A stretch of DNA of 64,000 bases, taken from Siphonodentalium dalli. Lineage: Eukaryota > Mollusca > Scaphopoda > Gadilida > Siphonodentaliidae. The position numbers were made by a program, and so were the translations under genes. The stretch is from assembly GCA_032622095.1 (NCBI GenBank), contig CP136064.1, forward strand, positions 134,487,129-134,551,128. Direction: 5' to 3'. Positions 2,477-59,462 of the stretch are shown piece by piece. The notes under the pieces are model-generated. The model saw only the letters and a list, made by a program, of their open reading frames with translations. It ran no database searches and had not been told where the DNA came from. Position 1 is the first letter of the stretch. Each line of letters begins with the position of its first letter.

Positions 2477-5078
2477 TTAGCTCAACTTACTTTGTAAGTT
2501 TGAGCTATTGTCATGGGTTGGGTCAGTCGTCTGTGTGTGCGTGTTTCCGTTAACAATTTCCTTTGGTGCTGGCTACAGGTTGTATCTTTGGTCTGATCTT
2601 GTCATGGATGTTAACAATGGCATGTAGATGGGAACGAGTCATTTTAGGGTCATTCGGCCAAAAAACATCGGCCGCCAGCAGCCATCTTGTATTTTACTCT
2701 TTGCATGACTAAATCCTTTGGCACGGGCTACAGGTTGAACTTTTTGTAGGATCATCATGAAATTTGTCATGAATGTTGACATTGACATTTTGGGGTCATT
2801 CGGCAAAAATTCATGGCCACCAGCGGCCATCTTGGATTTCAAAATTTCAATCCTTTGGCACAGACTGCAAGTCGTATCTTTCGTCCGATCATTATGAAAT
2901 TTGTCATGGCTGTTAACATTGACATGTAGATGGGAAACGAGTCATTTTGGGGTCATTCGGGAAAAATTCATGGCCACCAGCGGCCATCTTGGATTTCAAA
3001 ATTTCAATCCTTTGGTACGGGCTGCAAGTCGTATCTTTCGTTCGATCATTATGAAATTTGTCATGAATGTTAACATTGACATGTAGATGAGAACGAGTCT
3101 GGTTGGGGAGTCATTCTGCGTAAAAACATGGCCTTCGGCAGCCATCTTGGTTCTTAATCTATGCATGACTAAATCCTTTGGTACATCCTACAGACCTACA
3201 GATCCGATCATCACCAAACTTCATATGGATCATCGGGGCGACCTCTAGATGGGAACGAGTCATTTTGGATTCATTTGGCTAAAAAATATGGCCGCCATCG
3301 GCCATCTTGGATTTTACTCTTTGCATCACTAAATACTTTCGCGCGTGCTACAGGTTGTATCTTTGGTCGGATCTTTATGAAATTTGTCATGAATGTTGAC
3401 ATTAACATGTAGATGGGAACGAGTCATTTTGGTGTCATTCGGCCAAAAAACATGGCTTCTGGTGGCCATCTTGGATTTCAAATTTGAATCCATTGGCGCG
3501 GGCTACAGGCCGTACTGTTTGTCTGATCATCATAAAATTTGTCATGAATGTTGACATTTACATGTAGATGGGAAAGAGTCATTTTAGGATCATTCGGCCA
3601 AAAAACATGGCCGCTGGTGGCCATCTTGGATTTTACTCTTTGCATCACTAAATCCTTTGACACATCCTACAGACCACATCTCTGATCCAATCATCACCAA
3701 ACTTCATATGGATCATCGGGGTGACCTCTAGATGGGAACGAGTCATTTTGGGCTCATTTGGCCAAAAAATAGTGCTGGGTGATATGACGATATATCGGGT
3801 ATAGCCGGTTTTAATTTTGATATCGTCAATAATATCGTCTGAAATAAAAATATCATAATACCGTCCCAAGTTGTAATATTCTCCATGTAGGTTGAAACCC
3901 ATCATATGGTCCCAACAAACAGGAAAGTTAGAGTAAGTATTCCCAGAAATACGCAGTCGAAAAAAGTGCTTGGCAAGTTGGATATGCTTCGTCGAAAACA
4001 TCAAAGCGCTAGCATCAGTTGGCTACATTGTGAGATTGGTATGTCGTGTGCATGCGACTGGCACAATGACCTCCTTTAAAGTTGGTGCAGCTTGCTCTAT
4101 CAACCGTAACCGGTTGCTTGGAGACGGATTACGATGTCAGATTTTATATTGACCACACCAGCTGATCATGTCAATGTGTGCAAATTGCGAGTAAAATGAT
4201 TTTGTGGACATGTGCCGTATGGATCATGACATTGCTATGATGCTATCGCTTCAACAAACGTCAAATTCACAAAACTAATTGAACATGTATATATTTATTT
4301 TCCTCGGCTAAAAAAATGCCAACGCAAATTCATTTCACGTTGGCTTTTGCCTCGGCACTGCCCATTGTCGATGCTAATTCCCAGGGCTGCCATATATGTA
4401 CATTGAAGTCTCATGGTGCTACCAACTACCACTAATAAATAGTCTCACAAATAACCAATTCCTCACGAATAAATAAAATGGAAATTTGAAACCGAATGCG
4501 GTGCTTAATGTGTGTTGTTGAACGCTATGGTCGAAGGGATATAACTCTAAAAATTTATGCTAAAACGCATGTGGGCCTTGTTATATGATTACATCCCTTT
4601 GTTTCAAAGTTATTGTTTTCTCTGTCGGCAAACTGTCGATTGTTGCAGACGAGTGGTCATTATATACATATGTATACTGTGATGTTACTGATAATTGTTC
4701 AATACACATTTACTCGATTTCGCATGGCCCACAAAACGTAAATAAAATGTAGGGATGTATTGTGCAAACTTTATTCATGAAATATTGCATATATTATACA
4801 TTGTACTTACCAACTGTTATATACCAAAATAATATCGAGATAATATCGTCTATCGCGGTGTTTTCACCATAATATTGCGATATTTTTTGGGGCCAATATC
4901 GCCCAGCCCTACCAAAAAACATGGCCGCCGTCAGCCATCTTGGATTTTACTCTTTGCATCACTAAATACTTTCACACACCCTACAGACGACATCCCTGAT
5001 CCGATCATTATGAGACTTGTCAACCATTAAATTATTCCCCTACCTAAGATGAGCTACGGTGTCATTGACACTTTCATT
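2477..5078 (+). mobile_element. Family A pearl/Helentron-like element A1 (carries a hAT insertion)
   Basis: The 5' palindrome is at 2479-2506 (AGCTCAACTTAC / GTAAGTTTGAGCT). A GTCGTCTGTGTGTGCGTG stretch follows, then repeated cores of about 160-170 bp. Each core has 'catgaaatttgtcat', 'gacatgtagatgggaacgag' and a CATGGCCGCC...CCATCTTGGA pair. The 3' end carries GAGCTACGG and the hairpin GTGTCATTGACAC, then TTTCATT (to 5078). This layout is known from the oyster pearl family and from HINE/DINE-1 non-autonomous Helentrons. It has no open reading frame. A 1,142-bp hAT element sits in one core unit. Confidence 0.8.
3770..4911. mobile_element. hAT-type non-autonomous transposon 1 (8-bp TSD CCAAAAAA)
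   Basis: The left end TAGTGCTGGGTGATAT and the right end ATATCGCCCAGCCCTA are inverted repeats. Immediately outside are perfect 8-bp direct repeats CCAAAAAA (3762-3769 and 4912-4919). Removing element plus one repeat rebuilds the family A core 'gccaaaaaacatggcc'. The 8-bp duplication and TAG...CTA ends fit hAT. Subterminal ATATCGTC/ATATTGCGATA motifs recur near both ends and may be transposase sites. It is 1,142 bp and no transposase is recognisable. Confidence 0.9.
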
Positions 5079-5084
5079 ATGATC

Positions 5085-6610
5085 CCACTGGTATACTGGA
5101 TTGACTGCGTCTGTCCATCACACCTTTGACTGCGTCTGTCTGTCACACTTTCTCCCTCTGTGTGTCCATCCGTCCGTCCATCCGACCTCATAACTGGAAC
5201 AACTATGAACCGATTTCAATAATTTTTTGTATGCAATCTCCTTAGGACCGCCTCTCCGCATGATGCTAATTGTGGTGTGGTCCGACTTTCTTTTTTTAAG
5301 TTACGCCTTACTTTTCGACTTATTTTGACTTAGAAAATTCTGTCCGACTTAATAACTTTAACAAATACGAACCGATTTCAATAATTTATGGTATACATGC
5401 TTCTCACAACACCCTCTCTACATGATGCCAGGCCTCAGCCTAGGGACAGGGAGACTTGAAGTCTCCCCTCCAGGAAATTTAGGGAGATTTCAGGGAGAAG
5501 TGGGGAGACTACCAAAAATTGACAATTTTCAAATATCGCTTTATTTTATAACATCTGACAATAAAAATTTTAAAAAGATGAAATAAAACTAAAATAATTT
5601 GACTTTATCTGAAATTAGCTTAATTAAATGTTATTATACATTTAAATTTTTTGGAAATGTTTTGTGTAGCTATCATTTAAGCAAGACAATTATCAAGTTA
5701 CAGTAGTAGTTAATTTTTTAACTAAATGAAAGTAGTATTATTTCCTAGACTGCAGCCTGGAAGATACGTTTGTACAGTCTGAATTATGATGCATGTAACT
5801 TTGTAAGTTTAATTTGATCATGGCTGTAATTTGGGTGTCCGCTAAAATAAACAATAAGGACTAACTAACAAAGGAGTTGCAAAAGCTTTTATTAATTAAT
5901 GGCCTCCCTTAATTAATGCCAACATCACTGGTATAATCCGATTAAAGCAATAAACTTGACATTATTTTATTTACGGAAGCGGTCTCTTCAAAAAGTCCGA
6001 TGCAGTCTCTTAAAAAAGTCAGACGCGTTACCGAAACGAACTTCCGAAGCGCCTGGTACATACTCTGATAATGTCGTAATTGTTTTATATCTGAAAAGCG
6101 GGACGGCGGTCTTTTAAGTTAATTAAAATATTTATTTGTGACACTCACGATGGTCTGTAACAACACAGATGCGAACATCTCATCGTGTTTTCAGCGTGTC
6201 AAAACATTCGTGATTAACATTCATTACCGCAAAGGGATCGAACAAAGGCGACTGAATAACAACACAAAACAATAGGTCATATTTTATTTTTTATTTTAAA
6301 CACTTGGGTCTTTGTCTCTGCATCGTCTGTTTCTTTTTGGGATGGCCGCCACAATTCATCTATATACGGACATGTCCGGAAAAAAAAGAATTCCCCCTAA
6401 AATTGAAGGCGACTTCAATTTCGCCTTAGAGCGACGACAGGGCGAAGTCAGCGACAGTAAGGCGACAATCTCGCCCGAGTCGCCTTGTGAGCTGAGGCCT
6501 GCATGATGCGGCTCAGGGTACACTTCATTTTTGACTTAGAACATTTTGGGATTTTTTTTTGTGGATTTGGGATTTTTTGTGTGTGGATGCTATCAAGTTA
6601 GGTTATTCTA
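5085..6610 (+). repeat. Family E dispersed repeat (split by a hAT element)
   Basis: It begins right after element A1 with 'ggtatactggattgactgcgtctgtcc', TCCGTCCG runs, then units with 'aactttaacaaatacgaacc' and 'gatttcaataattt.tggtata.atgcttctc'. The same text is at 45729-46200. It is interrupted at 'catgatgc' by the 1,073-bp hAT element and resumes at about 6502 with 'ggctcagggtacacttcattttt'. Confidence 0.65.
5429..6501. mobile_element. hAT-type non-autonomous transposon 2 (8-bp TSD CATGATGC)
   Basis: The terminal inverted repeats CAGGCCTCAGC and GCTGAGGCCTG are flanked by perfect 8-bp repeats CATGATGC at 5421-5428 and 6502-6509. CAGG ends and 8-bp duplications are typical of hAT. It is 1,073 bp. 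Near the left end there is a GGGAGAC-rich patch and near the right end a GGCGA-rich patch, each locally repetitive. No transposase is seen. Confidence 0.9.
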
Positions 6611-7083
6611 TTGCTATAATATCTCAGCTTTGTCCAAATTTTTTCCCTGGGGTTGTGTGCCTTAGTAGAAGTTTTGTTTGACTGACGAAACACTCGACAA
6701 AAGCCATCTTAGATGTTAAGGTTGCGTTTCATTTTCTACCCTATTTTGGGTTTCTGCAATCATTCGACCAAATATGAACCAATTTGAACAAAATTTCTGT
6801 ACAAGCTTCTTGCGACACCATATCAATATTATTAATCCAAATTTTTCTTTAAAGTTAAAAATCTTTTTTGTTGGGTTTACGGATAATGAGGGTTGAATTT
6901 GCCACGGTGGGAGTATGCTAGCACACGAGTGCACACCTCTTGTTGTTAATAGCTATACCAGTATTTAAAATAGTTAGGTGTCATACTATTATCAAGGCTA
7001 TTTAACCCTTTAAATAGGCTTTACCCATTACACTTATCACCAACGTCACTGCCCCAGCCAACACCAAAAGTTCAGGCCTTTTT
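6611..7083. other. Repeat-derived fragments, no gene
   Basis: It contains a family E-like unit ('ccaaatatgaaccaatttgaacaaaatttctgtacaagcttctt' read in parts, about 6765-6815). The remainder is unplaced AT-rich sequence. No exon is recognised. Confidence 0.4.
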
Positions 7084-8340
7084 TGCTCAACTTTACTTTG
7101 TAAAGTTTGAGCTATTGCCATGGCTTTGTATCTGTCATCCGTGTGCGTGGTTCATTAACAATTTTCTTTAGCATGGGCTACAGGTTGTACCTTTGGTCGG
7201 ATGACTATGAAATTTGTCATGGCTGTTGACATTGACATGTAGATGGGCAGCCATCTTGGATTTAACTTTTTGCATGACTAAATCATTTGGCATGGGCTAC
7301 AGGTCGTAGCTTTGGTTGGATCATCATGAAATTAATCATGGATGTTAACAATGACATGTAGATGGACACGAGTCATTTTGGGGTCATTTGGTCAAAAAAC
7401 ATGGCCGCCAGCAGCCATCTTGGATTTTACTCTTTGCATGACTAAATCCTTTGACACAGGCTACAGGTCGTACCTTTGGTCAGATCATTATGATATTTGT
7501 CATGGCTGCTGACATTGACATGTGGATGGGAATGAGTCATTTTGGGGTCATTCGGCAAAAAAACATGGCCGCCAGTGGCCATCTTGGATTTCAAAATTCA
7601 ATCCATTACCATGGGCTACAGGCCATACTGTTTGTCTGACCATCATGAAATTGTCATGGCTGTTAATATTGACATGTAGATGGGTACTAGTCATTTTGGG
7701 GGTCATAAGGCAAAAAAACATGGCCGCCAACAGCCATCTTGGATTTAACTTTTTGCATGACCAAATCCTTTGGCACAGGCTACAGGTCGTACATGTAGCT
7801 TTGGTCGGATCTTTATGAAATTTGTCATGATTGTTTTGTTGACATTGACATGTGGATGGGAACGAATCATTTTGGGGGTCATTCGGCAAAAAAACATGGC
7901 CATCAGTGACCAATTGGCTTTCAAAATTCAATCCGTTAGCACAGACTACAGGCCGGAGTGTTCGTCTGATCATCATGAAATTTGTCGTGGAAGTTAATAC
8001 TGACATGTAAATGGGAATAAGTCATTTTGGGGTCATTCAGCCATACAACATCTTGGAGTTTAATCTTTGTATGACTAAATCCTTTGACACAGGCTACAGG
8101 TCGTATCTTTTGGTCGGATCATCATGAAATTTGTCATGGATGTTAACATTGACATGTAAATGGGAACGTGTCATTTTGGAGTCATTCGGCAAAAAAACAT
8201 GGCTGCCAGTGGCCATCTTGGATTTTACTCTTTGCATAACTAGACCTTTCAACTTTCCACATTCATAATCACTCCATTGACTGTAACAGATGAAATTATT
8301 CCCTTTCCAAGTTGAGCTACAGTGTCATTGCACTTTCATT
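7084..8340 (+). mobile_element. Family A pearl/Helentron-like element A2
   Basis: The 5' palindrome at 7085-7113 reads GCTCAACTTTAC/TTT/GTAAAGTTTGAGC. It holds about five tandem cores; successive ATGGCC positions at 7401, 7565, 7720 and 7895 give a spacing of 155-175 bp. The 3' module starts at about 8246 ('tttcaactttccacattc') and ends in GAGCTAC, AGTGTCATT and CACTTTCATT. One A has been lost from the right arm of the terminal hairpin, so this copy's hairpin is imperfect. There is no protein-coding potential; apparent long frames on both strands follow the repeat period. Confidence 0.82.
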
Positions 8341-10484: not shown

Positions 10485-11660
10485 CATGTCATGAAAAAAG
10501 TATTCTGATTCTGATGCTTCCCATGTTAATTGGTGCAAACAGGAATATATAACCTCTCAAATTAACATTAAAACAGAGCCACAAGAGCAAATATCATGCA
10601 TCATCTTAATAAATGTTATGTATTCATTTGTGTGAGATCACAGATAGGAGAGCACAACACGCAGACATCCTGGCATCTGAGACCAGCACACTATTAAATT
10701 AATTTATCCAGGAAAGTGAAAACATTCTGTGCTTGCTCTGTATTACATACATGTAATCTAGAACTAATACTCAAGCTATAATTGAATTTGGGAGCAGTAT
10801 TTCTCTTTTGAGGGAACCACTATACCCATACATCTAAAGCTGGGAACCACTATATCTGTTTGAGCACTTCTATAAGCGTCTTCTGTTTAGCAAACCCATG
10901 GATACACATCTTGTTCGCTCTGTTCAAATTTAGCACCCGCTGATTCATTGGTTCCTGCATTACTTCTTCTTTCAGAATTCTTTAAATATTACTTGGAATA
11001 ATTTTGATAAATATAATGTGAAGATTCTGTTTGATGAGAATTGCCCTGTGTTTTGTGCATTGTTCTGTTGTTCTGTGTATTTTTCCAGTGAATACTTCAA
11101 GGAGTTTGTTTCAACTGGAATTCTTTACCTGTATATACCAATTAAGTGCTCATTTAAATTTGAGGCATTACATTTCTTAGCACCTGATATATAATGTGTT
11201 TATATCATGGCTGTATTCACTTAATATTGCTGCTTAGAATTAAGATTTCCATCTCTCGATTCAATTGCATGAGGAAAAATACATTGAAAATAGTTTAGCC
11301 TGTATAAACACTGAGTTCATTTATCTAGTAGTAAGACCATGTCATATACTTGCAACATAGTTTTACTTCATAATGAAGGCAAGTTTCGCCTGCTGGATTG
11401 AAAGAGTAGAGATGTGAATTTACTTATTGGAGCAAAAATTCTTCCTATTTGCAGACAACAAAAATGGGAAACTACCAAGTGTTCTCATGAGTTAAATGCA
11501 GGAGAAGCTGAACATTATTCTTATAGCAGATTCTAAAGTGACTGTTGTTGCAATGCATTTTTATCACTGTCTGTCATTAACTTTATAATATAAATGTGGA
11601 GAGCATAGTGACAGTTTTCTAAGATTGGGGATTATAATTGTATTTAAGCAAGTCATTTCT
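10485..11660. other. Unplaced PAK intron sequence
   Basis: AT-rich sequence with no exon, RNA gene or repeat family that I can support. Confidence 0.4.
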
Positions 11661-11664
11661 TTGT

Positions 11665-11740
11665 ATGTTTACCCATACCATAGTATGGTAAACATAGTGT
11701 CGTTGCCCGGATTGACCACTCGTCGTTAGTCCGTCCGTCC

Positions 11741-11774
<34 letters not shown>

Positions 11775-12262
11775 AGACACTTAACGCATGGTGCGATAAC
11801 TCGAACATTTTATATCTGATCGGAACCAAATTTTGTATATTAATTTGTCAGCACCAAATACAGATCGAGTTCGAATATGGGTTCGATCCGAGTTTTTTTC
11901 ACGGAGTTATGGCCCTTTTTCGACTTAGAATTCATGCATGCTACCATAACTCAAAAAAATTTTATCTGATCAGAATCAAATTTGGTATGCAAGTTTCTCG
12001 GACCAAAATACAGATCGAGTTCGAATATGGGTTTGATCCGATATTTTTCAATGGAGTTATGGCCCTTTTTCGACTTAGAATTCATGCATGCTGCCATAAC
12101 TCAATTTTTTTTTATCTGATCGGAACCAAATTTGGTATGCGAGTTTCTCAACTCAAAATACAGATCGAGTTTGAATATGGGTTATATCCAACATTTTATA
12201 CCAGAGTTATGGCCCTTTTTCAACTAAGAATTGAACAGATAACCATAGCAGTCTACAATTAA
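11665..12262 (+). repeat. Family C element with 5' palindrome and three core units
   Basis: The palindrome at 11665-11695 is ATGTTTACC...GGTAAACAT. A run of GTCC then GTCT units (about 11727-11774) follows, then three cores of about 120 bp with 'ttatctgatcggaaccaaattt', 'cagatcgagttcgaatatgg' and 'gagttatggccctttttcga'. Other 5' ends of this family are at about 45382 and 50405. It is non-coding; the 117-codon frame is the repeat read through. Confidence 0.75.
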
Positions 12263-12602
12263 TTACCAGTGGTATCAGTTTAGCTCTGAGAGCAGTAAAT
12301 CTGTATTATGGGAATTAGAGTTATTTTTTACTCCCATGTTTATGATGACACACTCCTCACCTGTATAGTTTTTGGTGTTGATCGGTTTAGAAATTATTAA
12401 CACTTTGCATCCGCACATAGGCATGAGCTATCCGATGCTGTAACCAAATTATTTTTTGTCCGATTGTTTTCATATTGGATATGTAGGTTTATAATGACAC
12501 ACCCCTCACCTGTATAGTTTTTGGTAACGATCGGTTGATCGGTTTAGAAAATAATTAACCCTGCACACAAATGCTATCTGATCCATCTAAGTCAAACTGT
12601 TT
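12263..12602. repeat. Two units of a 'cctcacctgtatag' repeat
   Basis: Two copies spaced about 140 bp apart (about 12340-12410 and 12485-12560) share 'ataatgacacac.cctcacctgtatag' and 'tttttggt...gatcggttt'. This may be the degraded 3' part of the family C element. No gene is seen. Confidence 0.45.
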
Positions 12603-15600
12603 TTAGCTCACCTGAGACGAAGTCTCCGGTGGAGCTATAGTCATCACTCCTCGTCCGTCGTCCGTCCGTCCGTCTGTCCGTCTGTCTGTCTGTCCGTCTG
12701 TCCGTCAACTTTTTTTAAAAACATCTTCTCCTCTGAAACCATCATACCGAATTGGTTCATATTTGGTGTGGATGTTCCCTAGGTGACTCTCATTCAGATT
12801 TGTTCAAATGACGTCACTGGGTCAAATAGTTGTGAAACCAGGGCCATAACTCTATTCCTCCATAGTAATTCTTACAACAACTTCTTGTTCATAACCATTG
12901 TGCCGATTTAGCTAATATTTGGTATGGAGGGTCCTTGGGTGACTGGTGTTCAGATTTGTTCAAATGAGGTCACCCGGTCAATTAGTTGAGAAACCAGGGC
13001 CATAACTCATAGTAATTCTTACAATGACTTCTTCTAAAAAAATATTTGGCCTATTCAGCTTATATTTGGTACTGAGGGACCTTGGGTGACTGGGAATCAG
13101 ATTTGTTCAAATTGGGTCACTGGGTCAAATAGGGGCAGAGCCAGGGACATTTCTAAAAACAAAAATTAAATTTTTGCATTTTGACCTTTAATTTTTGTTT
13201 AGGACCCATCACAGTCTCATATTTCTTACCTACATTTTTCTTAGCATGTTCTTCATCTGTATGGATTTTGGTATTGTTTATTTAACCCCTTCCACTCTTG
13301 TTTTGATATAGAATTCATCCAAGACAGGATTACTCAAACATTTTTCATCTGATCAACACCAAATTGATCCGATATATTTTAACAGAGTTATGGCCCTTTA
13401 TAATTCACACCCCTTTGCTATGCACTATTAATTTTTAAGAGGACACTCTAGCCTGTATTATTGAAAAAGCCAATTTATCATAGTGTGGTCACCTGATCCT
13501 CTTGCTGAATACTGCTTGCTTCAGACCAGTTTATCATCTGTCATTACAAGACATGACATTAGCTAAACAACTACCAGAGTCTACAAGGAATAGTCCATTG
13601 TTCATTTCTCCAAGCCTGGACATAGTGTGTCTGACATTTGCAGAATGAAGTCCCCAGATGGTGAATTTAGTGTTGCTACCCCATACAATTTCAAATTTGG
13701 TATATGAATTTTTGACACTTATATACAGATCAAGTTAAAATATGGGTTTGATCCGATATATTTTAACAGAGTTATGGCCATAATTCCCCAAAAAATAATA
13801 AAATATTCAGGAACTCCTTGATCAATTTATGTAGGCAGAGTCCCCAGGGAGTGTATTCATGTCATTCATAATTTAAATGAGATTAATGGTGTTATCAATG
13901 AAGCACCCTTGTTGTTTACATTATCACTCAGTGGTCATTAAAATCAGATTAATTTCATTTTCTCCAAGTGTCTGGCATTGGAGGTATGAGGTTCCCAGAG
14001 GGTGAATTCATGTTGTTCCACACAGCAGGCTAGCATAACCCAATACACCCTCTGAGAACATTATTCTGCTTAGGCCTCATCTTCTGGGAAGTATCTAGAG
14101 TCTCAAGATCTCATTCTGCTTAGGCCTCATCTTCTGGGAAGTATCTATAGTATCAAATTTACATTGTTGTTAGTTAAATTTCCCTTCTAGGAAGTTTCTG
14201 TATCCCTTAATTTGCAGAAGATAAAATTCATGATTGAGGTGCCCAATGGGTGAACATCACCAATTTCAACTGGGGAACTTCAATCTTATTCTAGGTCTTC
14301 CATAGCAGTTGAGGGCCTTATCAGAATGAGGTCCCCAGAGAGTGAATATAGTGATACTAGCCCGCTGTGCAGGAAAGCGTCACTAAATTCACCCTCTGGG
14401 GACCTCATTCTGCAAATAACAGACAGACTATCTCAAGGCTTGATTGTATAATACAGTGTGTTGCTTGAGGCCAGACATGCACAATGTAGGAACAGACATG
14501 CTTGTAGTGATGCTATCCCACATAGCGGGCTAGCATCACCAAATTCACCATTTGGAGACCTCATTCTGCTTAGGCCTCATCTTCTGGGAAGTATCTATAG
14601 TATTAAATTTACATTGTTGTTAGTTAAATTTCCCTTCTAGGAAGTTTCTATATCCCCTAATTTGCAGAAGATAAAATTCATAATTGAGGGGCCCAATGGG
14701 TGAACATCACCAACTTCAACTGGGGAAATTCAATTTTATTCTAGGTCTTCCATAGCAGTTGAGGGCCTTATCAGAATGAGGTCCCCAGAGGGTGAATTTA
14801 GAGTCACTAAATTCACCCTCTGGGGACCTCATTCTGCAAATGACAGACACACTATCACACTATTTCAAGGCTTGTTGTATAATACATTGTGTTGCTTGAG
14901 GCCAGGCATGCACAATGTAGGAACAGACACGCTTTTTGTGATGCTATTCCGCACAGCAGGCTAGCATCACCAAATTCAACCTCTGGCGACCTCATTCTGC
15001 TTAGGCCTCATCTTCTGGGAAGTATCTATAGTATCAAATTTACATTGTTGTTAGTTAAATTTCCCTTCTAGGAAGTTTCTATATCCCCTAATTTGCAGAA
15101 AATAAAATTCATAAATGAGGTGCCCAATGGGTGAATATCACCAACTTCAACTGGGGAACTTAATTTTTATCCTTATCAGATTTGTGAAAATGGGATCACA
15201 AAGTCAAATAAGGGCAGAGCAAGAGACTTAACTATTTCACTACATAGTAATTCTTAAAATATGTTTGCAAGAACTAGTTGGCTTATATAGAATGGAATGT
15301 TCTTCCTTGACTGCAATTCAGATTTTTTTAATGGGGTCACCTGGTCAAATAGGGGCCAAGCGAAGGACAGTTTCCCTCTTAATATGCTTCCTTCACAAGG
15401 ACCATCAGGTCTATTTGACTGATATTTATGATATGTATGAAGGGTTCTTTGGTGTCTGGGATTCAAATTTATTCAGATGGAGTCACCAGGTTAAATAGGG
15501 TGGGACCAGGGACATAACTATATGTCTCTATAGTAATTCTTAAAATGTCTTCTCAAGAGAGTTTGGACTATTTAGCTTACATATAGTATGGAGGAATCAA

Positions 15601-16150
15601 TAGGATCCTTTAGTGACTGAGATTCAGATTTGTTAAAATGAGGTCAACCTGTCAAGAAATGGCAGGCTATGGGGAGTCTAATAAAATCATCGAAATACCA
15701 AATTCATTAAAACATCTACCTTGGAACCAATTGACTGATTGGTCGGACATACATGTATTGTGTTTTTGGGTCCATGGATAATTGGGCTTCAAACATGTTT
15801 AAATGGTTTTAGAAAAAGGCGCTTGTGAGATTGGAAATTTCCAACAATTGAGAAAGTTTGAGGTGTCGGTTGTGAAATTCCAACCTAAGACTTGGGAGTC
15901 TGGATCCCGGTCGGGAGGGGACTTGTTGAGCTGGAGGAGGGGGGTGATCAGTAGTGTACAGTTGGCAATTTCAAGGTGGATTTTTACCAAGCTACATACT
16001 TGAAGTCTCTCTAGCCACATATCCTGTATAAATCTACTTCTTTTAAAGTGATTATGAAAAGTGCTGACTGTTTTGGTCTCCAGAGTCCCAGTCTTATCAG
16101 TCTTTGCAGTCTGGTGAGCGACCCCACAGTCATTGACTGTCTTGTCTTCT
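12603..16150 (+). mobile_element. Family B element B2, composite
   Basis: The 5' palindrome at 12605-12636 reads AGCTCACC...GGTGGAGCT, followed by CCGTCCGTCCGTC. Cores carry 'ttcatatttggtgtggatgttcc', 'attcagatttgttcaaatg' and 'ccagggccataactc'. Related core text returns at 15160-15660, and the 3' module ends with the hairpin ACAGTCATTGACTGT at 16126-16140 plus CTTGTC. The middle (about 13600-15160) is occupied by a different tandem repeat and family C/E fragments. Treating the whole as one element is inference from the matching 5' and 3' ends. Confidence 0.6.
14067..15170. repeat. Tandem repeat, period about 430-450 bp, with internal hairpins
   Basis: 'taggcctcatcttctgggaa' starts at 14121, 14571 and 15002, giving two full units and one partial. 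Each full unit contains an inverted pair, GAGGTCCCCAGAG and CTCTGGGGACCTC, about 60 bp apart (for example 14329-14407). A lone arm is at about 13646, and another is far away at about 27180. It looks like a foldback element caught in a tandem array inside family B2. Confidence 0.65.
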
Positions 16151-16659
16151 GATATGCCTCATATTTCTTACCAAGGTTTTTCTTAGCACGTTCTTTATCT
16201 GTATGGTTTTTGGTATCGTTTAATTAACCCTTTTCAAACTTATTTTTACTTAGAACTCAAAACATTTTTCATCTGATCTACACCAAATTTGGTACATGTG
16301 GTCCTCACCCCGAAATACAGATCAAGTTCAAATTTGGGTTTGATCCGATATATTTTAACAGAGTTATGGCCCTTTATAATTCAAGTAATTTACTACCTAT
16401 TGTATATGCCCTGTGAGAATTTAAGACAAACAACTTTACACAGTAATCTGCTTTATTGGGATCAGAAAATGACACTGGATACTCTTTGCTAAACCACTGC
16501 TGCTCCCAGAGCTGTCAAATTTAAGTGATTGATGATACTTTACTCCAGTTTGTGTGCAATAGTAATTTAACCCAACCTGTTGAAACATGTTCATGGCATT
16601 AATACAAATAGTCCATTGTCCATGTGAAGGATGTTCTGGAGCATGGCTGTTTAGAGAAT

Positions 16660-17620
16660 TGTTGTTTACAGAGACACTGTTGTCTTATCTTGAGAAAACA
16701 ATTTATCCACACATTAGTTCCATCATATGATGTCATTGAAAATGATTAACACTCTCCACACATCATATGTTCATTCTCCTATTCTATGTCCAGGTTGATC
16801 GTGATCCACTTTTCACTTGCATGTATTTCAGGATTAAAATTAACCTATTCCATAGACACATAATATCTGATACGCAGATTTTAAATTATGTCTTTCGCCT
16901 TAGGCCAGGTTCACTAAGAATTTCTATTAATTATAAGCCACCAATTGAATATTCATCATTTGAGGATATCTTATTTTGAAATTCCCTCTATTGCATTTGG
17001 GCTGCAGGATAATAATAATGGTTCTGGTATTCTTGAAGCTGACTTTTTGGTCAAATATTTTTCACCCAATCACTTTTATAATCTCATTCAGGTTGATTGT
17101 GATACATTCTTCATGCGTATAGATTTTGGTATAGATTGAATGGTTTTGAGAATATTAACCCAATATTTAATAATATTTCTGCTGTTACAGACATTGTATC
17201 TTTCCAATGATCAGCTTAGAATAAAATTAACCATAGGTACATGTATACTGTACGCGATCCAATGTTATGACTCTAATATTTTCAATTTGACCCTTCTCAT
17301 ATCTCTCCTTTAGTTATCTGATAATTCTGTATTAAAATATTTTATATCCAACCATTATCAATCATATTTAATATCAAGGTCTATACACCCCTCACTTATA
17401 TAGATGTTCAGGTGTTTGTTGGTCTCTAATCTCAATCATCCCATAACTTTTACTATGCAGCTAACACAACAACATAATCTGTTATGACTCAGGTTCCATT
17501 GTAAGAATTAAATAAATAGAGTTATTATGATGTTAATATTGTAACAATTATATCTTTAACAGCTATGGTGCATCTGTCTGACTGTGTTTGGGTATAATTA
17601 TCTTTATCAATCTATCACAC
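16660..17620 (+). repeat. Dispersed repeat, copy 1 (second copy at 51615-52290)
   Basis: 'gttgtcttatctt', 'catcatatgatgtcattgaa', 'ctccacacatcatatg' and 'gatccacttttcacttgcatg' all recur in the same order at 51615-52290. Both copies also share 'cattcattg.gctgcaggataat'-type text and end near 'acagctagggtgc'. Neither has a clear coding frame or defined termini. The family is not identified. Confidence 0.6.
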
Positions 17621-22728: not shown

Positions 22729-22842
22729 TAAACATGTTATAAAATTTGAAAAAAGTGACACCATTATAACATCCGTCTATCAACAATTGTTTTCTTCTCC
22801 ATATCAAAGACCGAATGTGTTTATATATTTCAGTGTGCATGT

Positions 22843-35196: not shown

Positions 35197-35208
35197 TACT
35201 TAGATTTT

Positions 35209-45310: not shown

Positions 45311-45381
45311 TTTGGGGTGGTTCCAAAAACCCCTTCTTATCTATAAACGCCAGTAAATATTGTTTCATAAGTTATGTTTTT

Positions 45382-45650
45382 ATGTTCACCCATATCATAG
45401 TATGGTAAACATAGTGTCGGTCGACAACCGGATTGACCATTTGTTGTTCGTTTGTCTGTCCATCCAGCCTGGACGTCCAGCCATCCATCCGTCCATCTGT
45501 CCGTCTGTCCATGGACACTTTTTCTATCTGATCGAAAACAAATTTTGTATATGAATTCTCAGCCCAAAAGACAGATCGAGTTCGAATATGGGTTTGATCC
45601 GATTATTTTTAACTGAGTTATGGCCCTTTTTCAAAAAATATTCAAGTGGT
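45382..45650 (+). repeat. Family C element, short copy
   Basis: The 5' palindrome ATGTTCACC...GGTAAACAT (about 45382-45412) is followed by CATCCGTCCATCTGTCCGTC and one core with 'tatctgatcgaaaacaaattt', 'agatcgagttcgaatatggg' and 'gagttatggcccttttt'. Confidence 0.7.
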
Positions 45651-45728
45651 CTAAAAAAAAAAAATTCGAAAAACTAACACCATTATAACTCTGCCAAGCG
45701 TACCCTGAGTCACTGCACAAAATTTTGT

Positions 45729-46210
45729 TTTACCCCCACTTTCGAAGAAATTGGGGGGTATACTGGATTGACTGCGTCCATCCGTCACATTTTCTCCTTC
45801 TGTTTGTCCGTCCGTCCGTCCGTCCGACCTCATAACTCGAACAGCTATGAACCGATTTCAATAATTTTTTGTATGCAATCTCCTTAGGACGGTCTCTCCG
45901 CATGATGCTAATTGCGGTTCGGTCCGACTTTTTACGCCTCTTTTTCGACTTATTTTGACTAAGAAAATTCTGTCCGACTTAATAACTTTAACAAATATGA
46001 ACCGATTTCAATAATTTTTGGTATACATGCTTCTAACAATACCCTCTCTACATGAAGCGGTTAGGGATTGGCTCAGACTGTTTTTCGTAATATTACACCT
46101 CATTTTCGACTTATTTTGACTTGGAAAATTCTGTCTGACTTAATAACTTTAACAAATATGAACCGATTTGAATAATTTTTTCTGTACAAGCTTCTTGTTT
46201 AAATCGGTCC
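45729..46210 (+). mobile_element. Family E element with complete 5' palindrome
   Basis: TACCCCCACTTTCGAAGAAA / TTGGGGGGTA at 45731-45760, then GTCCGTCCGTCCGTCCG. Three units follow with 'aactttaacaaatatgaacc', 'gatttcaataatttttggta' and 'ttttcgacttattttgact'. It matches 5085-5430 closely and lets that copy's missing 5' end be understood. Confidence 0.72.
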
Positions 46211-46615
46211 AAAATCGTGTGTTATGTACTGGTAAATTTGTTTGGAGCGATATTAAATCCAATTCACCAATTCAATCCGATGCCTTTGGTCTACTTAGCT
46301 ATTAATATGGTTATATCATTTTCTGATTTCTCTTATGCCATTTTGCAGATAAAGCTATGGTATCTAATTTCTAAAAAATGTTTCAACAATACGCACTTTT
46401 ACAAATATAGGCCCCAATGTTAATTTATCGTAAGTAATTTCAAAATAATCCTGATTATGTTGATGATTTGTCAAAATTTAATAATCATGCCGTCACAATT
46501 ATTTGGCACCTGAGCAAGAAGGGCTTTGTTGAAAATCAATCAGGTAAAAACATGAAGATATTTAAAATTTAATTGACATGAATACCCTAAATTGCTGCCC
46601 AACTTTTTGTTCCAG
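46211..46615. other. PAK intron sequence
   Basis: Unplaced AT-rich sequence, ending in the acceptor CTTTTTGTTCCAG at 46615. Confidence 0.5.
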
Positions 46616-46788
46616 TATACAAAACCAGTTGAACCAGAAGATCACAAAACAGATATAATAAATGCAGCTAAAGAAAAACAAAAGAAGAGGAAGATGACAG
46701 ATGAAGAAATAATGGAAAAATTACGAATGATAGTTACGATAGGGGATCCCAATAGGAAATATACTAAAATGGAGAAAATTGGACAAGG
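46616..46788 (+). CDS. PAK: p21-activated kinase, pre-kinase and kinase-start exon
   Basis: It encodes [20 protein letters not shown], then [20 protein letters not shown] and [18 protein letters not shown]. The first residues continue the PIX ligand (TKS-IYT in PAK1-3). The Lys-rich [17 protein letters not shown] segment and GDPxxKYTxxEKIGQG are the signature approach to the PAK kinase domain. The exon ends inside the glycine-rich loop: the last Gly codon is split GG/T with the next exon, donor CAAGG/GTGAGT. The linker between PIX site and kinase is much shorter than the roughly 50-residue Thr/Pro-rich stretch of vertebrate PAK1, which is usual for an invertebrate family member. Certain identification. 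Confidence 0.97.
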
Positions 46789-47039
46789 GTGAGTACCCGG
46801 TACTCAGCAGCATATGCTGGAGAAGGGAAGATTACAAAATATGGTAAAGTTGATTATCTCAGTCTAAATTTGACCAATTGAAATCCTTGGGGGAAACTCA
46901 TGCAGCACAGCTTTGAAGAATATCAAGGTCCTTGTTTTGCACCTTATCTGACTTCTACTGTAATCAGTTATTGCAAGGTATTTAGGATCAAGAATAATTG
47001 TTACCCTTATAGTAGAGTTTTACTTCGTAAATCATTGGG
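46789..47039. other. PAK intron sequence
   Basis: No repeat or exon is recognised. Confidence 0.4.
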
Positions 47040-47412: not shown

Positions 47413-47496
47413 ACTGTTGCGGGGTGGAATTTAAGCATCAAAATACCTTGGTCAACCTAAAACCATACCGTGGTATACCATATTACCGATTATTAA

Positions 47497-48601
47497 ATCA
47501 ACTTTAATTTGTAAAGTTTGAGCTATTGCCTTGCTATTGTTTAGTATCCATTGTCCGTGTGTGTGTGTGTGCATGAGTGATTCGTCAACAATTTCCTTTA
47601 GCACGGGCTACAGGTCGTACCTTTGGCTGATCATTATGAAATTTGTCATAACTGTTTTGACATTGACATGTAGATGGGAACGAGTCATTTTGGGGTCATT
47701 CGGCAGAAAAACATTGCCGCTGGTGGCAATTTTTGATTTCAAAATTCAATCCATTAGCATGGGCTACAGGTTGTACTGTTCGTCTGATCGTCATGGGTGT
47801 TAATATTGACATGTAGATGGGAACGAGTAATTTTGGGGTCTTTTGCCAAAAAACATGGCCACCAGCAGCCATCTTGGATTTTACTCTTTGCGTGACTAAA
47901 TCCTTTGGCACAGGCTACAGGTTGTACCTTTGGTCGGATCATCATGAAATTTGTCATAGATGTTAACAATGACATGTAGATGGGAATAAGTCATTTTGGG
48001 GTCATTCGGCCAAAAAACATGGTCGCCAGCAGCCATCTTGGATTGGGCTACAGGCCATACTATTTGTCTGATCATCATGAAATTTGTCATGGATGTTAAT
48101 ATTGACATGTAGATGGGAACGAGTCATTTTGGGGTCATTCTGCAAAAAAACATGTCCGCCAGCATCCATCTTGGATTTTACTCTTTGCATGACTAAATCC
48201 TTTGGCATAGGCTGCAGGTCATACCTTTGGTCTGATCTTTATGAAATTTGTCATGGCTGTTGACATTGACATGTAGATGTGAACGAGTCATTTTGGGGTC
48301 ATTCGGCAAAAAAACATGGCCGCCAGTGGTCATCTTGGATTTCAAAATTCAATCCATTAGCACAGACTACAGGCCGGATCATGATGAAATTTGTCATGGA
48401 TGTTAACATTGACATGTAAATGGGTACGAGTCATTTTGGGGTTATTTGGCATAAAAACATGGCTGCCAGTGGCCATCTTGGTTTTTACTCTTTGCATAAC
48501 TACACCTTTCAACTGTCGACATTCCTAATCACTCCATTGACTGTGACACATAAAATTATTCCCTTTCCAAGTTGAGCTACAGTGTCATTGACACTTTCAT
48601 T
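47497..48601 (+). mobile_element. Family A pearl/Helentron-like element A10
   Basis: The 5' palindrome CAACTTTAATTTGTAAAGTTTG is diverged on the left. A GTGTGTGTGTGTG stretch and six cores of about 160 bp follow. The intact 3' end reads CAAGTTGAGCTAC, AGTGTCATTGACACT, TTCATT (48601). The unit order alternates between 'tttcaaaattcaatccatta' and 'ttttactctttgcatgac' ends, so the true period may be a dimer. Confidence 0.82.
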
Positions 48602-49858
48602 TTAACTATTCCTTTAAAACCCCAATGAGTAGTGATCGTTTGGTACACAAATCAACTGTTTTTGGAGGAAATCGATTAGCTACCAGCTTACAATAAATAA
48701 GGATACACACAACCCAACTCTCTGTTTTATAAAATTATGGATTAACAAACAGTGGCAATGTATCATTTGTCTGTATGCATCATGCATGGATTCATGACAC
48801 ACTGAGCGGATACATCCAAGAGCTTTGAAATAACCCCGCTGACTCGCACAGACCACGTGTGAATAAGTATAATGCTTTTATTAAATGCCTGGAAATAAGG
48901 TGTATTACTTTCAAAGTATTTAACTAGTAGGACTATTATTCACTTCCCGGTTGAATTATTATAAATAAACCATATAAATCCACGTTTATGAATGTAATCA
49001 ATCATTCCCACTCAATCGACACCGCGGGAAATAATGAGCTGTCCCACGCATATCACAGAATGGTGCAATCATAACTTGGAATTTAATGTTGGGCTTGATT
49101 TCGTCCCGGATAACGAAGGAATGCATTTTTTGGCAAATGTCATCAGGAAAGAAGTGACATAAGTGAAGAATGAACAGTTTCTTTCAACTGAAAGATAACT
49201 ATGGAGTAAAGAAACCAAGTAGTTTCTTTGTATTTTGATAAAGGTAAACCACAATGTACCCGATAAAGGCCGGTATGACTTGTAAGTATGACAATATGTT
49301 TACCGATTATGGAAAAATATGATGGTAACATTAATGGTATTCAAAATCTTACCTATTATAATTGATAGACCAAAATATCACCCAGCACTAAAATGGATAC
49401 CAGTTTTTCTGACACATCCTGTTTGTTGTAGTTGTCCCTGATAAATAATTGTTTTTTGTCTATAGAAATTGCGAGTGTTTGTTCTTCTCAAATTGTTTCC
49501 AAAAATCTTCAATTTTGGGGTGTTTCTGTTTAATTTTGTCATTATTCCTGCTTCATATTAAATATATTATAGTATATTTTATACCACTGGAAATTGCAAG
49601 ATCTAAAATATAGATCAAAGTTATCAGGTCAGAATAAAAAATAAAAAAAATGAAGTGAGGTTTGTTTTCAGTGCATTTGTGCTCTGTACTGATAGCATCT
49701 TCATCAATTGCAGCCCTATTAATCATTGTCAATATAGTTCATTTATGGCCCCTGGAATCTTGTTAAGCCAACCTTATGAAAAGTTTGTAACAAGGGAAAA
49801 TAGAAGTATTTTTTCCAATGTTTATTTGATATTCATTTTGTGTTTCTTTTGATTTTAG
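48602..49858. other. Unique PAK intron sequence
   Basis: About 1.25 kb with no recognised repeat. It ends with TTTCTTTTGATTTTAG, the acceptor of the next exon. Confidence 0.5.
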
Positions 49859-52290: not shown

Positions 52291-52295
52291 GAGCT

Positions 52296-52792: not shown

Positions 52793-54072
52793 GCTCAACT
52801 TACTTTGTAAGCTCCGTGGTCCAGTGGTTAGCGCGTTGGACTTGTCTTCGCTGTCAACACAGCGAGGCGAGTTCGCGGCTGGCTGGTGGTCTGTTATGAG
52901 TTTCCACACAGCAGTGGCTTGGCCGACTTGAGCGATGTGCAATTGTTGGATTGTACACTGTTTGAATCTCGCGCCAAGTTGTGACCCTTGAGCAAGGTCG
53001 CTCGTACTGTGTCTGCTTTGCACCACCCATGCATTACAAGGGTACCTGATAATGAGCAGTGAAAGATCTTGTCAGTATGCTAGCCATATGGTATCCTCGC
53101 ATACTCCCGGCGTACCTCCCCCTGTCCCCGGGGAGCAGTAGATGGTTACTGAATGTTCAGGCTCATCAGGGTAATAATTGTAAAACTTTGAGCACTTTGG
53201 GCCTCATGGGAAAGGCGCTTTACAAATGCTATACATTATTATAAGTTTGAGCTATTGCCATGGTTTGGCGTCCGTCGTCCGTGTGTGTGCGTGTGTCTGT
53301 CAACAATTTCCTTTGGCGCGGGCTGCAGGTCGTACATTTGTTATGATCTTTATGAAATTTGTCATGAATGTTGACATTGACATGTAGATGGGAACGAGTC
53401 ATTTTGGTGTCATTCGGCCAAAAAACATTGCCGCTGGCAGCCATCTTGGATTTCAAAATTCAATCCATTGGCGCGGGCTACAGGTCGTACTGTTCGTCTG
53501 ATCATCATGAAATTTGTCATGGATGTTGTTAATATTGACATGTAGATGGGAACGAGTCATTTTGGGGTCGTTCGGCCCAAAAAACATGGTCGCCAGCAGC
53601 CATCTTGGATTTTACTCTTTGCATGACTAAATCCTTTGTCGCGGGCTACAGGTTGTAGCTTTGGTCGGAACTTCATGAAATTTGTCATGGATGTTAACAA
53701 TGACATGTAGATGGGAAACGAGTCATTTTGGGGTCGATCGGCCGAAAAACATGGCCGTCAGCAGCCATCTTGGATTTTACTCTTTGCATGACTAAATCCT
53801 TTGTCGCGGGCTACAGGTCATAGCTTTGGTCAGATCCTCATGAAATTTGTCATGGATGTTAACAATGACATGTAGATGGGAACGAGTCCTTTGGGGTCAA
53901 TTGGCCAAAAAACATGGCCGCCAACAGCCATCTTGGATTTTACTCTTTGCATGACTAAATCCTTTGGCACAGGTCAGACATTGCAATTAGCACCTTTCCT
54001 TTCCTATATACTGTCAACCATTAAATTATTCCCCTACCTAAGTTGAGCTACAGTGTCATTGACACTTTCATT
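52793..54072 (+). mobile_element. Family A element A11 (5' palindrome split by a SINE)
   Basis: The left arm TTTTAGCTCAACTTACTTTG (52790-52808) and right arm AAGTTTGAGCT (53243-53253) are separated by a 430-bp SINE. After the insertion come GTCCGTCGTCCGTGTGTGTG and five cores. The intact 3' end AGTTGAGCTAC, AGTGTCATTGACACT, TTCATT finishes at 54072. Confidence 0.82.
52812..53241 (+). mobile_element. tRNA-derived SINE
   Basis: The head CTCCGTGGTCCAGTGGTTAG fits an RNA polymerase III A box exactly (TGGTCCAGTGG against TRGYNNARNNG). About 45 bp later GAGTTCGCGG is a weakened B box. The tail has GGAAAGGCGCTTTACAAATG and TATACATTATTAT, the style of LINE-derived SINE 3' ends. Flanks GTAAG and ATAAG give a short target duplication (TAAG, possibly longer). 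About 430 bp, non-coding. It inserted in a family A 5' palindrome. Confidence 0.85.
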
Positions 54073-54174
54073 TTATATGCACCAGGTCTCTTTGATCGCC
54101 GTTATAGTAAAGATGATATCACATGCGGTCTTGTTTCCCGCTCGATTCATTATACAACCCTTACAAATTAGCCA

Positions 54175-55685: not shown

Positions 55686-55738
55686 ATGGTTCGTCAACTC
55701 ACAAACTCAGCGAACGCATTGGCATACGTGGACAACTT

Positions 55739-57062: not shown

Positions 57063-57600
57063 TGAACCATATATTGAGAAGTGGCTGTTTGGGAAGATCA
57101 CCAGGTGTACATGTTGTTATCCCCATTATGTCACCAAAGCTGACAATACGCAGATAGATAGGTCCTTCTGAAAGCTAGTATACGCATCGACCGAATACCT
57201 TTCTAGTGTATCGCACAAGATGACGCCCATACCCCATATGTAGCATCTGAATTATGCCATAAGCTATACCACGAATGAAGCACGCCAAGAATAAGGATAA
57301 GAATTCCAAGCTTTCGAAACAAACACGTGAGCTGGACAACGGCATGTGCATTGTTTGAAACATTCCGATTAGTGGGACCATTTTACAAAGAAGTGTAGAA
57401 AACTGTTGTCGTGAGCGAGATAGATTAATCTGACGAAGAGACGGAAACTGGTCTAGATAATGTTGAATGTGGCAAATCAGAATAAACTCAAGTACTGTTG
57501 TTTTGATTCTTGGAAGTCATAATATGACTATTCGGAGCACGGTTACGGCCAGTATTAGACAGGGGCATGCCAGAGAAAATCTAAAAAAATTTAGTGTCAA
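57063..57600. other. Unplaced sequence
   Basis: No exon is recognised. It may be the decayed tail of the preceding unidentified element. Confidence 0.3.
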
Positions 57601-57639
57601 ACTTTTGAGAACGTTTTTGCATAGAATGATCATTACAAT

Positions 57640-59160
57640 TCAAAATAAAAAAATGGGCCACCTTGAAAATGTCCTTGAATCCAAGATTGCCGCCAAAATC
57701 CAAAATGGCCCCCAAAATGCCAATTTTCTTATCATGTGTCGCATTGATGGTCTTGAAGTTTAGTTTTATCACCATGAAACCTTGATATATGCATGACTAA
57801 ACTGTTGTCAGGTGATGTCTTGATAAAAACACTAACAAACCAACCATATTGATGATGATTTTGATCCAAAATGGCCACCAAAATGGCCGCCATAAGACCA
57901 ATTTTCCTATCATGTGTAATGTTGCTGGGACTGAAAGTTAGTCTTATCAGCATAAAACATTTATGTATGTATGTATTAATTGTTCTTAAATGATCAGTTA
58001 ATAAAATAACTAATAACTTGACCAAATTAAGGTTGGATTTTATTTCAAAATGGCCACCAAAATACAAAATGGCCACCATATGGTCAATTTTTCAATCATA
58101 TGTAATGTTTCTGCAACTGAAATTAGTCTTAGCAACATGAAACATTGATGTAAGTATGTATGTATTAATAGTTCTTAGATGATGAATTAATGAAAACAAG
58201 TAATAAATTGACCAGAAAAAGGATGAATGTTATTTCAAAATGGCCGACAAATTCCAAAATGGACGCCATATGATAAATTTTATTTTCCTATCATTTGTTA
58301 TGTTGCTGGGACTGAATGTTAGTCTTAGCGGCATGAAACATTGATGTATGTATGTTTTAATTTTTCTTAAATGATAAAATAATAAAATAACTAATAAATT
58401 GACCACATTAAGGATTGATGTTATTTCAAAATGGCCGCCAAAGTCCAAAATGGCCGCCATATGGCCAATTTTTTTCAATCCTGTGAAATGTTGTTGCGAC
58501 TGGAAGTCAGTCTTATCAGAGTGAAACATTGATGTTGTATGTCTAAATTGTTATTAGATGATGAACTGAAAAAAAAAACTGAGGATGAATGTTATTTCAA
58601 AATGGCAGCCAAAATCTAAAACTGACGCCATATGGTCAATTGTCCTATCATGTGTTATGTTGCTGGGACTGAATGTTAGTCTTAGCAGCATGAAACATTG
58701 ATGTATGTATGTCTTCATTGTTCTTAGATGATGAATTGATAAAAAAAAAACTAATAAATTGACAAAAAACGGATGAATGTTATTTCAAAATGACTGCTAA
58801 AATTCAAAAGGGCCACCATAATGCCAATTTTGTATGTCTATAAATTGTTCTCAGATGATGAATTTAATTTAATAAAACATAATCAAATGACCGCATTAAT
58901 AATGAATATTATTTTAAAATGGCCACCAATATCCCAAATGGGAACCATGTGGTCAATTTTTTCTAACAAGTGTAATGTTGCTGGAACTGAAAATTAATCT
59001 TATCAGCATGCCACTTTGATGGATGTATGTCTTAATTGTTTTTGGATTATGAATCAGTAAAAAAAACTGATAAACTGGCCATATTAATAATGAAAGTTAT
59101 TTCAAAATGGGCACCATAATCCAAGTTGGCCACCATATGGCTACGTCATTGCTGCATTTG
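57640..59160 (+). repeat. Family I tandem array, + orientation, about 180-bp units
   Basis: 'tatttcaaaatggccgcc' marks units near 58041, 58231, 58422, 58593 and 58781 (spacing 171-191 bp), with diverged units on each side. Shared text: 'gttgctgggactgaa.gttagtctta', 'catgaaacattgatgtatgt' and 'taataaattgacc'. The array leads into a family A-type 3' module at 59330-59462. Its reverse complement appears at 60020-61075. Confidence 0.8.
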
Positions 59161-59329
59161 TGATTGAAAACCCATGTAATCGTAAAAAAAATACATCATT
59201 GATGGCCACTCATACAGTAATGCTCTAATTAATCGACCTCTTAACCACAGCAGAATTATGGTTAACTTTTCAGGATTTAGTCGGATATATGGCTTGTTGC
59301 CATATGGCTTGTTGCCATTCATCGGAAAG

Positions 59330-59462
59330 CTCTTGGCGACTAAACTAGTATACTAGTAACTTAAACATTTAAACTTTCCACATTCCTTATCGCTCCATTG
59401 ACTGTAAGATATGACATTATCCCCTCTCCGCGTTGAGCTACAGTGTCATTGACACTTTCATT
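59330..59462 (+). repeat. Family A 3' module on the family I array
   Basis: 'aaactttccacattccttatc', 'ctccattgactgtaa' and 'gcgttgagctac' lead to the hairpin AGTGTCATTGACACT with TTCATT to 59462. The text closely matches the 3' end of A2 and A10 but follows a quite different core array. Confidence 0.85.

Follow-up and report, generated by a model that had tools for sequence, protein, structure and literature searches.

Several families of HINE-type repeats with locally shared orientation in the scaphopod Siphonodentalium dalli, and Helentron lineages that carry their end modules

The pearl (CvA) elements of bivalves resemble, by description and not by sequence, the repeats analysed here in a 64 kb window of the scaphopod Siphonodentalium dalli, by which we mean the whole stretch of DNA under study (C4:134487129-134551128; assembly of 2.23 Gb in 9 contigs). 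Pearl, which has central repeats, was re-classed as a non-autonomous Helentron in PMC7492417, and that paper describes 11 Cg_HINEs of Crassostrea gigas with unique flanks, several of them sharing GTCY/GTCC/GTCK microsatellites and some having related cores. Our repeats are like the Cg_HINEs in having a 5' subterminal inverted repeat (subTIR) with an inner inverted repeat, a GTCY/GTCC microsatellite, a tandem core array, a 3' subTIR, a 3' palindrome, a T-rich target, many families per genome and some related cores, a likeness judged by published layout and not by direct sequence comparison. They differ in two respects. In PMC7492417, autonomous elements could not be related to the Cg_HINEs and insertion is in both orientations, whereas here Helentron lineages bear family modules at their open reading frames (ORFs), and orientation is locally coherent, with both strands used genome-wide. 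HINE-Mo, DINE-1 and Helentrons, described in PMC4067079, are alike in palindromic subTIRs, a 3' stem-loop and TT insertion without target modification; Helentrons are also alike in a Rep/helicase with a C-terminal endonuclease and an accessory OTU protease, the endonuclease being below threshold here. The difference is that the unit of our A lineage, described below, does not have an A end at its 3' side. We observed in the window six HINE-type families, A to F, and a seventh, G, which may be kin of E. We read these repeats, with a probability of roughly 85%, as several families of HINEs (non-autonomous Helentrons) that are copied by rolling circle, have lineage-specific partners and show strand-polarised insertion or survival.

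In families A to D, where both ends were read, an element consists of a family-specific 5' palindrome, a microsatellite, tandem cores, an inverted copy of an arm of the same family's palindrome and a stem-loop, with 3' ends reading ..AAGTTGAGCTACAGTGTCATTGACACTTTCATTTT in A, ..CTGGTGAGCGACCCCACAGTCATTGACTGTCTTGT in B, ..GGGTTAAACATCTGCCGATCGTGATCGGCCTCTCGTT in C and ..AGGGGGTATGTACCGGACGACAGTCCATCTCTTGT in D; the stem-loops were read in the sequence, not folded. A preliminary description of this DNA had reported a different palindrome at the start of each family, and the palindromes do differ, but they are not unrelated to the element ends. When each of the four palindromes was paired with each of the four 3' ends, own-family scores (A 20, B 15, C 25, D 18) exceeded all cross-family scores (at most 13), indicating that the seemingly unrelated palindromes are asymmetric inverted repeats of separate families. 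The 3' hairpin that it also listed is present in A to D; for F and G the window yielded no 3' end, and the sole E copy with a mapped end terminates within a core. A CCGTCC-type stretch behind the palindrome is likewise real, GTCCGTC occurring 31 times in the window against 2.1 expected (0 of 100 shuffles reach 31; 30 of the 31 are on the plus strand), but family A has GTGTG for the most part and little GTCC.

For B and C, that the palindromes are element ends was borne out by copies elsewhere. We compared 10 B and 10 C copies on C1, chosen by exact 5' word, the left side alone being informative, and in 15 of the 20 the left similarity ends 4-11 bp before the 5' word, in T-rich DNA. Exceptions are two pairs with duplicated flanks (L024/L025 of B and L031/L036 of C) and L026, where similarity is shared to 22 bp. 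Furthermore, for the B element inserted in C (against L037) and the E element inserted in C (against L029, L034 and L038) the flanks, once joined, align across the point of insertion, giving one empty site each, with a T-rich target and no duplication beyond the T's; the boundary check on copies thus covers B and C, and the empty-site check B and E. A further candidate empty site for B, H7b, was discarded, as it contains the B 3' region and is hence a deletion. Unlike canonical Helitrons (terminal CTRR, A/T insertion), families A to D have 3' ends without CTRR, and B was inserted in a T-run. The structural hallmarks that we tested support the HINE/Helentron identity of A to D, and the likeness to oyster pearl and HINE-type Helentrons, already suggested in the preliminary description, holds for the ends of A to D and the empty sites of B and E.

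The tandem cores described earlier were recovered by Tandem Repeats Finder in the window, with periods of 133-191 bp and multiples. A loose sentence had been proposed to run through the cores of all families; its 18-bp form, AAATTTGGTATGGATGTT, was matched as closely in 0 of 300 shuffles in each of A, B, C and D, but in 3.0% of shuffles in E and 5.7% in G, where it is weak, and in 73% in F, where it is absent. Comparison of core profiles outperformed that of single units, in which 18 of the 21 family pairs did not rise above the best of 40 shuffles (B-C, C-F and C-G did). With profiles, most members were above shuffles for A-D, C-D, E-D, C-E, C-F and C-G, while G-D was so in one direction only and B-D mainly in one; ten pairs were hardly or not above shuffles (A-B, A-C, B-C, A-E, A-F, A-G, B-F, E-F, E-G and F-G). 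The C-F match is uncertain, since the F set was gathered by similarity and may include C units. Core homology across families is partial and short-range, and not full-length for all, so the expected homology stood for some pairs only. Nor is the combination of many families with a common core grammar new, as had been thought, given that some of the 11 Cg_HINEs in PMC7492417 have related cores.

Exact 5' words occur in the genome in 5,781 copies for A, 3,709 for B, 3,338 for C and 586 for E, with 122 copies of a word of one D subtype; an A 3' word has 12,489. The F word tested is confined to the window, and family F is therefore not established as large. For the word GAGTTATGGCCCTTTTT we counted 18,432 exact copies in the genome, the reversed control giving 4. 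The word is also contained in the repeat unit, about 1,731 bp long and headed by a HINE-like palindrome (ATACTTCCATGG..GGAAGTAT), of a satellite seen at about 1490-8000 of locus L072 (C4:257534.1-257540.6 kb), and runs of the word at a spacing of about 1,710-1,746 bp lie at the start of contig C1 (C1:68-54838; also C1:5.34-5.45 Mb). The satellite looks like an entire HINE-like unit amplified in tandem.

The genome also harbours autonomous relatives. Helitron_like_N gave at least 151 genome matches (150 of 457 candidates scored), and the OTU region of what we call the A lineage gave 47, of which 16 are at 94-100%, 6 at 81-85%, and at least two more groups at roughly 42-56%. Open frames of 2,677-2,838 codons are present in 13 of the 16 matches of the closest group. 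The ORF from C4:257515758 onward, 2,770 aa long, contains OTU, Helitron_like_N (PF14214, 2.7e-23) and PIF1 (PF05970, 1.9e-28) domains over the cut-off, the query being without its first 42 residues. A C 5' end without the GTCC stretch (L031/L036) was considered as an autonomous 5' end and rejected, there being no frame longer than 103 aa in 1.9 kb.

In the preliminary description, one replication machinery was thought to serve all families. In that form the idea is not supported by our data. Here we see several diverged lineages, and at least two of them carry modules of different families directly upstream of the ORF. In each of the 11 A-lineage copies examined (of 16), 15 bp separate the end of an A-type 3' module (36 bp, 83-89% identical) from the ATG, itself preceded by CAG; the upstream sequence of two of these copies, H5 and H5b, was read to about 1.1-1.2 kb. 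All four C-lineage copies looked at (H1-H4) have a C 5' module upstream (83-88%, one partial), and in the three with a mapped ATG a C 3' module precedes that codon by 194-201 bp. It could still be argued that a single Helentron machinery mobilises every family and recognises only the stem-loop, 3' end and core sentence, leaving the palindromes free to vary. Indeed, the 3' ends of B, C and D all have a stem-loop with (C)TCTTGT or TCTCGT behind it, the mapped E end is also at CTTCTTG, TCATTGA is common to the stem-loops of A and B, the core sentence is common to A to D, and pieces of D, B and E lie inside A-lineage Helentrons. However, the 5' palindrome and 3' repeat agree within a family and not across families, so both are probably recognised together, different lineages have different family modules at their ORFs, and exact A, B and C 5' words persist in thousands of copies, although shared ancestry alone could also preserve these. 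We consider a single machinery quite improbable.

The position of the modules raises another explanation, that a HINE is the 5' leader of its Helentron, released at an internal terminator before the ORF, so that the autonomous element is the source of the HINE. The A-type module 15 bp before the ATG (CAG|ATG) in 11/11 copies, the order C 5' module, C 3' module, ATG in the C lineage, and the CAG or TAG, resembling a splice acceptor, in front of the MPK start wherever that start was mapped would all fit. On the other hand, the leader is more diverged among A-lineage copies (mostly about 80-97%) than the downstream part (about 99%), the A 5' palindrome with its tail and microsatellite is directly joined to the leader in one copy of 11 (C4b), and the same picture would arise if a HINE had inserted ahead of the ORF in each ancestor. 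We give this explanation less weight because modules of other families also lie upstream, and we regard it as possible but doubtful.

Several observations weigh against our preferred explanation of HINEs with lineage-specific partners. In the B lineage, a B 3' module lies about 670 bp upstream of the ATG in H6 (1/3 copies by search) and another was seen by eye in H7b, where there is an A 3' module as well, about 450 bp upstream, and in H7 no B 3' module was found upstream. Foreign modules are common upstream of ORFs, as shown by H1-H4, with A 3' modules at a greater distance upstream, and by C4b, with a B 3' module, and no module was found upstream of the ORF in two copies of the 81-85% group or in the C6 copy. 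HINEs are also dense, with 13 three-prime modules in the 64 kb of the window, and we estimate that chance alone would place a HINE 3' module at most 250 bp before an ORF in about 5% of cases per lineage. The C-terminal Exo_endo_phos domain of the A lineage (PF03372, E 0.0065, 16.7 bits) is below the cut-off of 24.5, although in the right place and order. Lastly, in C2, C4b and H5 (loci C2:2764494, C4:257517333 and C1:214415619) similarity stops at the same base about 18 kb after the ATG, after a stem-loop and CTAG and before TTAT. This shared 3' boundary resembles that of a canonical Helitron, and the idea that the A-lineage unit terminates in an A end was rejected. Partnership strictly requires that both termini be shared, and it stays putative here. 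Of the autonomous Helentron with the same termini that had been anticipated, there remain the A 5' end in one copy and the A-type 3' module at the ORF in 11/11; the terminal 3' end differs.

The downstream part of the A lineage contains other elements. A D element lies at the same place in 7/7 copies examined (H5, H5b, C2, C3, C4b, C4c and C5a), with the exact D word at the expected distance in 12/16, and there are B modules in H5, C2, C3 and C4b and an E module in H5, C2 and C4b. The 3' boundary adjoins the 1,731-bp satellite in the C4 and C1 copies and a similar palindrome in the C2 copy.

The second aspect of our analysis concerns orientation. Two exons of a PAK-type kinase gene lie in the window (Table 1) and, joined as one query, match PAK2 (8.3e-29); the repeats between them are within an intron of this gene, which probably extends across the whole window. 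Every mapped HINE end module in the window is sense to the kinase gene, one core array being reversed: all end-module matches are on the plus strand except self-matches of the D palindrome, and the window HINE library, built from the plus strand, matched 18,125 window bases on plus and 0 on minus. The exception to the common orientation is the minus-strand copy of a 191-bp array, which is outside the library. Self-comparison of the window gave 613 direct and 21 inverted matches of at least 60 bp. At 20 B and C loci elsewhere the same library matched 11,336 bases on the focal element's strand (the element itself included) and 0 on the opposite one; in 43 Helentron-locus pieces, overlapping sets in which the same lineages recur in many copies, it matched 32,823 bases on the ORF strand and 0 on the other. 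It had no match in four Helitron-class pieces. By eye, HINEs are sense in all three genes compared, i.e. PAK and two minus-strand PDZ genes, one with a minus-strand C element inside (C1:18.17-18.23 Mb) and one with an exon at C1:33.68 Mb and minus-strand C elements at 33.66 and 33.68 Mb. In the 1.3 kb beside 19 of 82 PDZ matches there was no HINE match in 18 and one weak 76-bp B match, antisense. Antisense HINEs would add somewhat more AATAAA than sense ones (11 and 4 in 18 kb) but no more ATTAAA (14 and 13).

On a larger scale, we used HINE end words to follow orientation along C1, taking for 0-23 Mb the first listed places of the A (5' and 3'), B, C and E words; removal of 41 A 3' ends within 5 kb of a same-strand A event left 170 events. 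At 5-20 kb, 31/33 pairs within families and 25/27 between families are on the same strand, followed by 35/40 and 34/38 at 20-50 kb, 33/57 and 30/48 at 50-100 kb, 31/80 and 34/93 at 100-200 kb, 97/253 and 106/277 at 200-500 kb, and 353/688 and 396/808 at 0.5-2 Mb. Thinning left 74 adjacent pairs at 5-50 kb, of which 66 are concordant (binomial p 1.8e-12, the pairs not being fully independent). By family pair, the figures at 5-50 kb are 40/42 for A 3' with B, 11/11 for A 3' with C, 33/40 for A 5' with B and 8/9 for A 5' with C, and in 200-kb tiles A 3' and B have a same-strand majority in 17 of 18 and an opposite majority in none. E and C agree in 6/7 pairs closer than 100 kb. Elsewhere on the contig, 21/27 adjacent pairs (23-51 Mb, p 0.006) and 5/6 (51-80 Mb) are concordant. 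The rule is not without exceptions, and it is weakened by B-C pairs at 5-50 kb (12/17), by E with B below 100 kb (3/7) and by adjacent events 50-200 kb apart (25/45). An excess of opposite pairs at 100-500 kb comes from few clusters, a tile test reaching p<0.05 in one of five comparisons (0.007). HINE orientation is, for the most part, locally coherent across families and fades by about 100 kb; a first idea of megabase blocks, taken from the family C list, was replaced by blocks of about 100 kb.

Shared orientation might simply be a by-product of local or nested duplication together with self-targeting, with HINEs inserting into the T-rich strand of older HINEs, and would then be no property of the chromosomal strand. 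Nested same-orientation insertions do occur, the HINE's own strand is T-rich (T 0.339, A 0.264), series of several A ends precede Helentron ORFs, and concordance was measured on HINEs alone. Yet concordance at 5-50 kb is as strong between families (59/65) as within them (66/73) and extends to 20-50 kb, which is longer than the elements; it is not higher below 5 kb (16/20 pairs, in an earlier pool of A 5', B and C words over C1 0-51 Mb), and T-runs equal A-runs (124 and 124) in the window outside HINE matches. We therefore think a by-product unlikely. The broader proposal, for which we see about even odds, is that insertion or survival of the Helentron class is strand-polarised, such that the orientation of every HINE family records local chromosome polarity in blocks of roughly 50-150 kb, and old repeats form a readable map of the direction of germline transcription or replication. 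The orientation could be set by insertion linked to transcription, by selection acting against antisense copies, by the direction of replication or by self-targeting. In PMC5371812, insertion of the IS200/IS605 single-strand transposons likewise follows chromosomal strand polarity; these are prokaryotic and unrelated, and the polarity there is that of replication. In the literature open to our search, which covered sources outside subscription, we found no report of locally shared Helitron insertion orientation and nothing on Helentron target-strand choice in animals. Clustering of Helitrons has reportedly been seen in maize.

Taken as lineage-specific, strand-polarised HINEs, the repeats would move as follows. 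A HINE would be a rolling-circle unit in which the 5' palindrome and the matching 3' subterminal repeat and stem-loop set start and stop. A Helentron protein, judging from its family, would copy it as single-stranded DNA, and the copy would be pasted into a T-rich stretch without target duplication. Different Helentron lineages may serve different families (A, C and weakly B), as Helentron ORFs directly behind the end module of a given family suggest, and insertion or survival would follow local strand polarity, to which the mostly common orientation of neighbouring copies of different families points.

The elements of the window are collected in Table 1. The end-module search, with 5' modules for seven families and 3' modules for four, placed 5' modules of A at 2475, 7082, 47491 and 53239 (fragment at 52790), of B at 12600, 19719 and 34457, of C at 11660 and 45377, of D at 25879 (a weaker one at 37105), of E at 45728 (fragment at 5090), of F at 18788 and of G at 873, the G query also giving a weak match to the E module (45751); 3' modules number eight for A, three for B (one partial) and one each for C and D. 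Further repeats lie within the interrupted C element. The junction word of the B-A fusion is unique in the genome, so the fusion is a one-off and was ruled out as evidence of module exchange. We also noted near-perfect long palindromes of 46-65 bp, similar to miniature inverted-repeat transposable elements, at 14772-14836, 18715-18768 and 63035-63080 and, by eye, two insertions with inverted ends inside A arrays (about 3771-4920 and 20485-21550), probably cut-and-paste transposons.

Table 1. Repeat elements and host-gene exons in the window (positions are those of the window).
Feature	Position	Strand	Details and basis
Family G, GGGGGGTATACTGG-type 5' end with cores	873..1300	+	End-module search
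Family A element	2475..5078	+	5' palindrome 2475-2516, 164-bp cores, 3' module 5025-5078; another insertion at about 3771-4920
Family A element with both ends	7082..8340	+	Tandem-repeat and end-module searches
Family C element by ends, interrupted by the next B element	11660..17841	+	5' module 11660-11725, cores 11813-12232, 3' module 17781-17841
Family B element nested in C	12600..16145	+	3' module 16082-16145; uninterrupted C copy L037
Family F 5' palindrome, short GTCC stretch, cores	18788..19260	+	End-module search
B 5' module continuous with microsatellite, cores and 3' module of A	19719..22729	+	End-module search
Family D element, both ends, 174-bp cores	25879..27117	+	Tandem-repeat and end-module searches
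PAK-type kinase coding exon (host gene)	31616..31762	+	Reading frame
Short family B element, both ends, 741 bp	34457..35197	+	End-module search
Family C element cut by E element	45377..46330	+	5' module 45377-45444; right limit is the extent of alignment; 3' end not found
Family E element inserted in C	45725..46194	+	3' end inside core at ..CAAGCTTCTTG; uninterrupted C copies L029, L034, L038
Second PAK-type coding exon (host gene)	46601..46789	+	Reading frame
Family A element with both ends	47491..48604	+	End-module search
Family A element, 5' palindrome partly lost	53239..54075	+	End-module search
191-bp core array ending in A-type 3' module	57600..59465	+	3' module 59411-59465; tandem-repeat and end-module searches
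Same 191-bp core array (CCAAAATGGCCGCCAT type), reversed	60015..61070	-	Window self-comparison; no termini found

We believe that the mover of bivalve HINEs, which PMC7492417 leaves unresolved, becomes directly testable in this genome, where at least three HINE families run to thousands of copies and Helentron ORFs are long and open. The local orientation rule is the part worth following, and it needs a control repeat and annotation. If the rule is genome-wide and tied to replication or transcription, it would show how Helentrons choose their target strand in animals and would provide a simple sequence readout of strand polarity.

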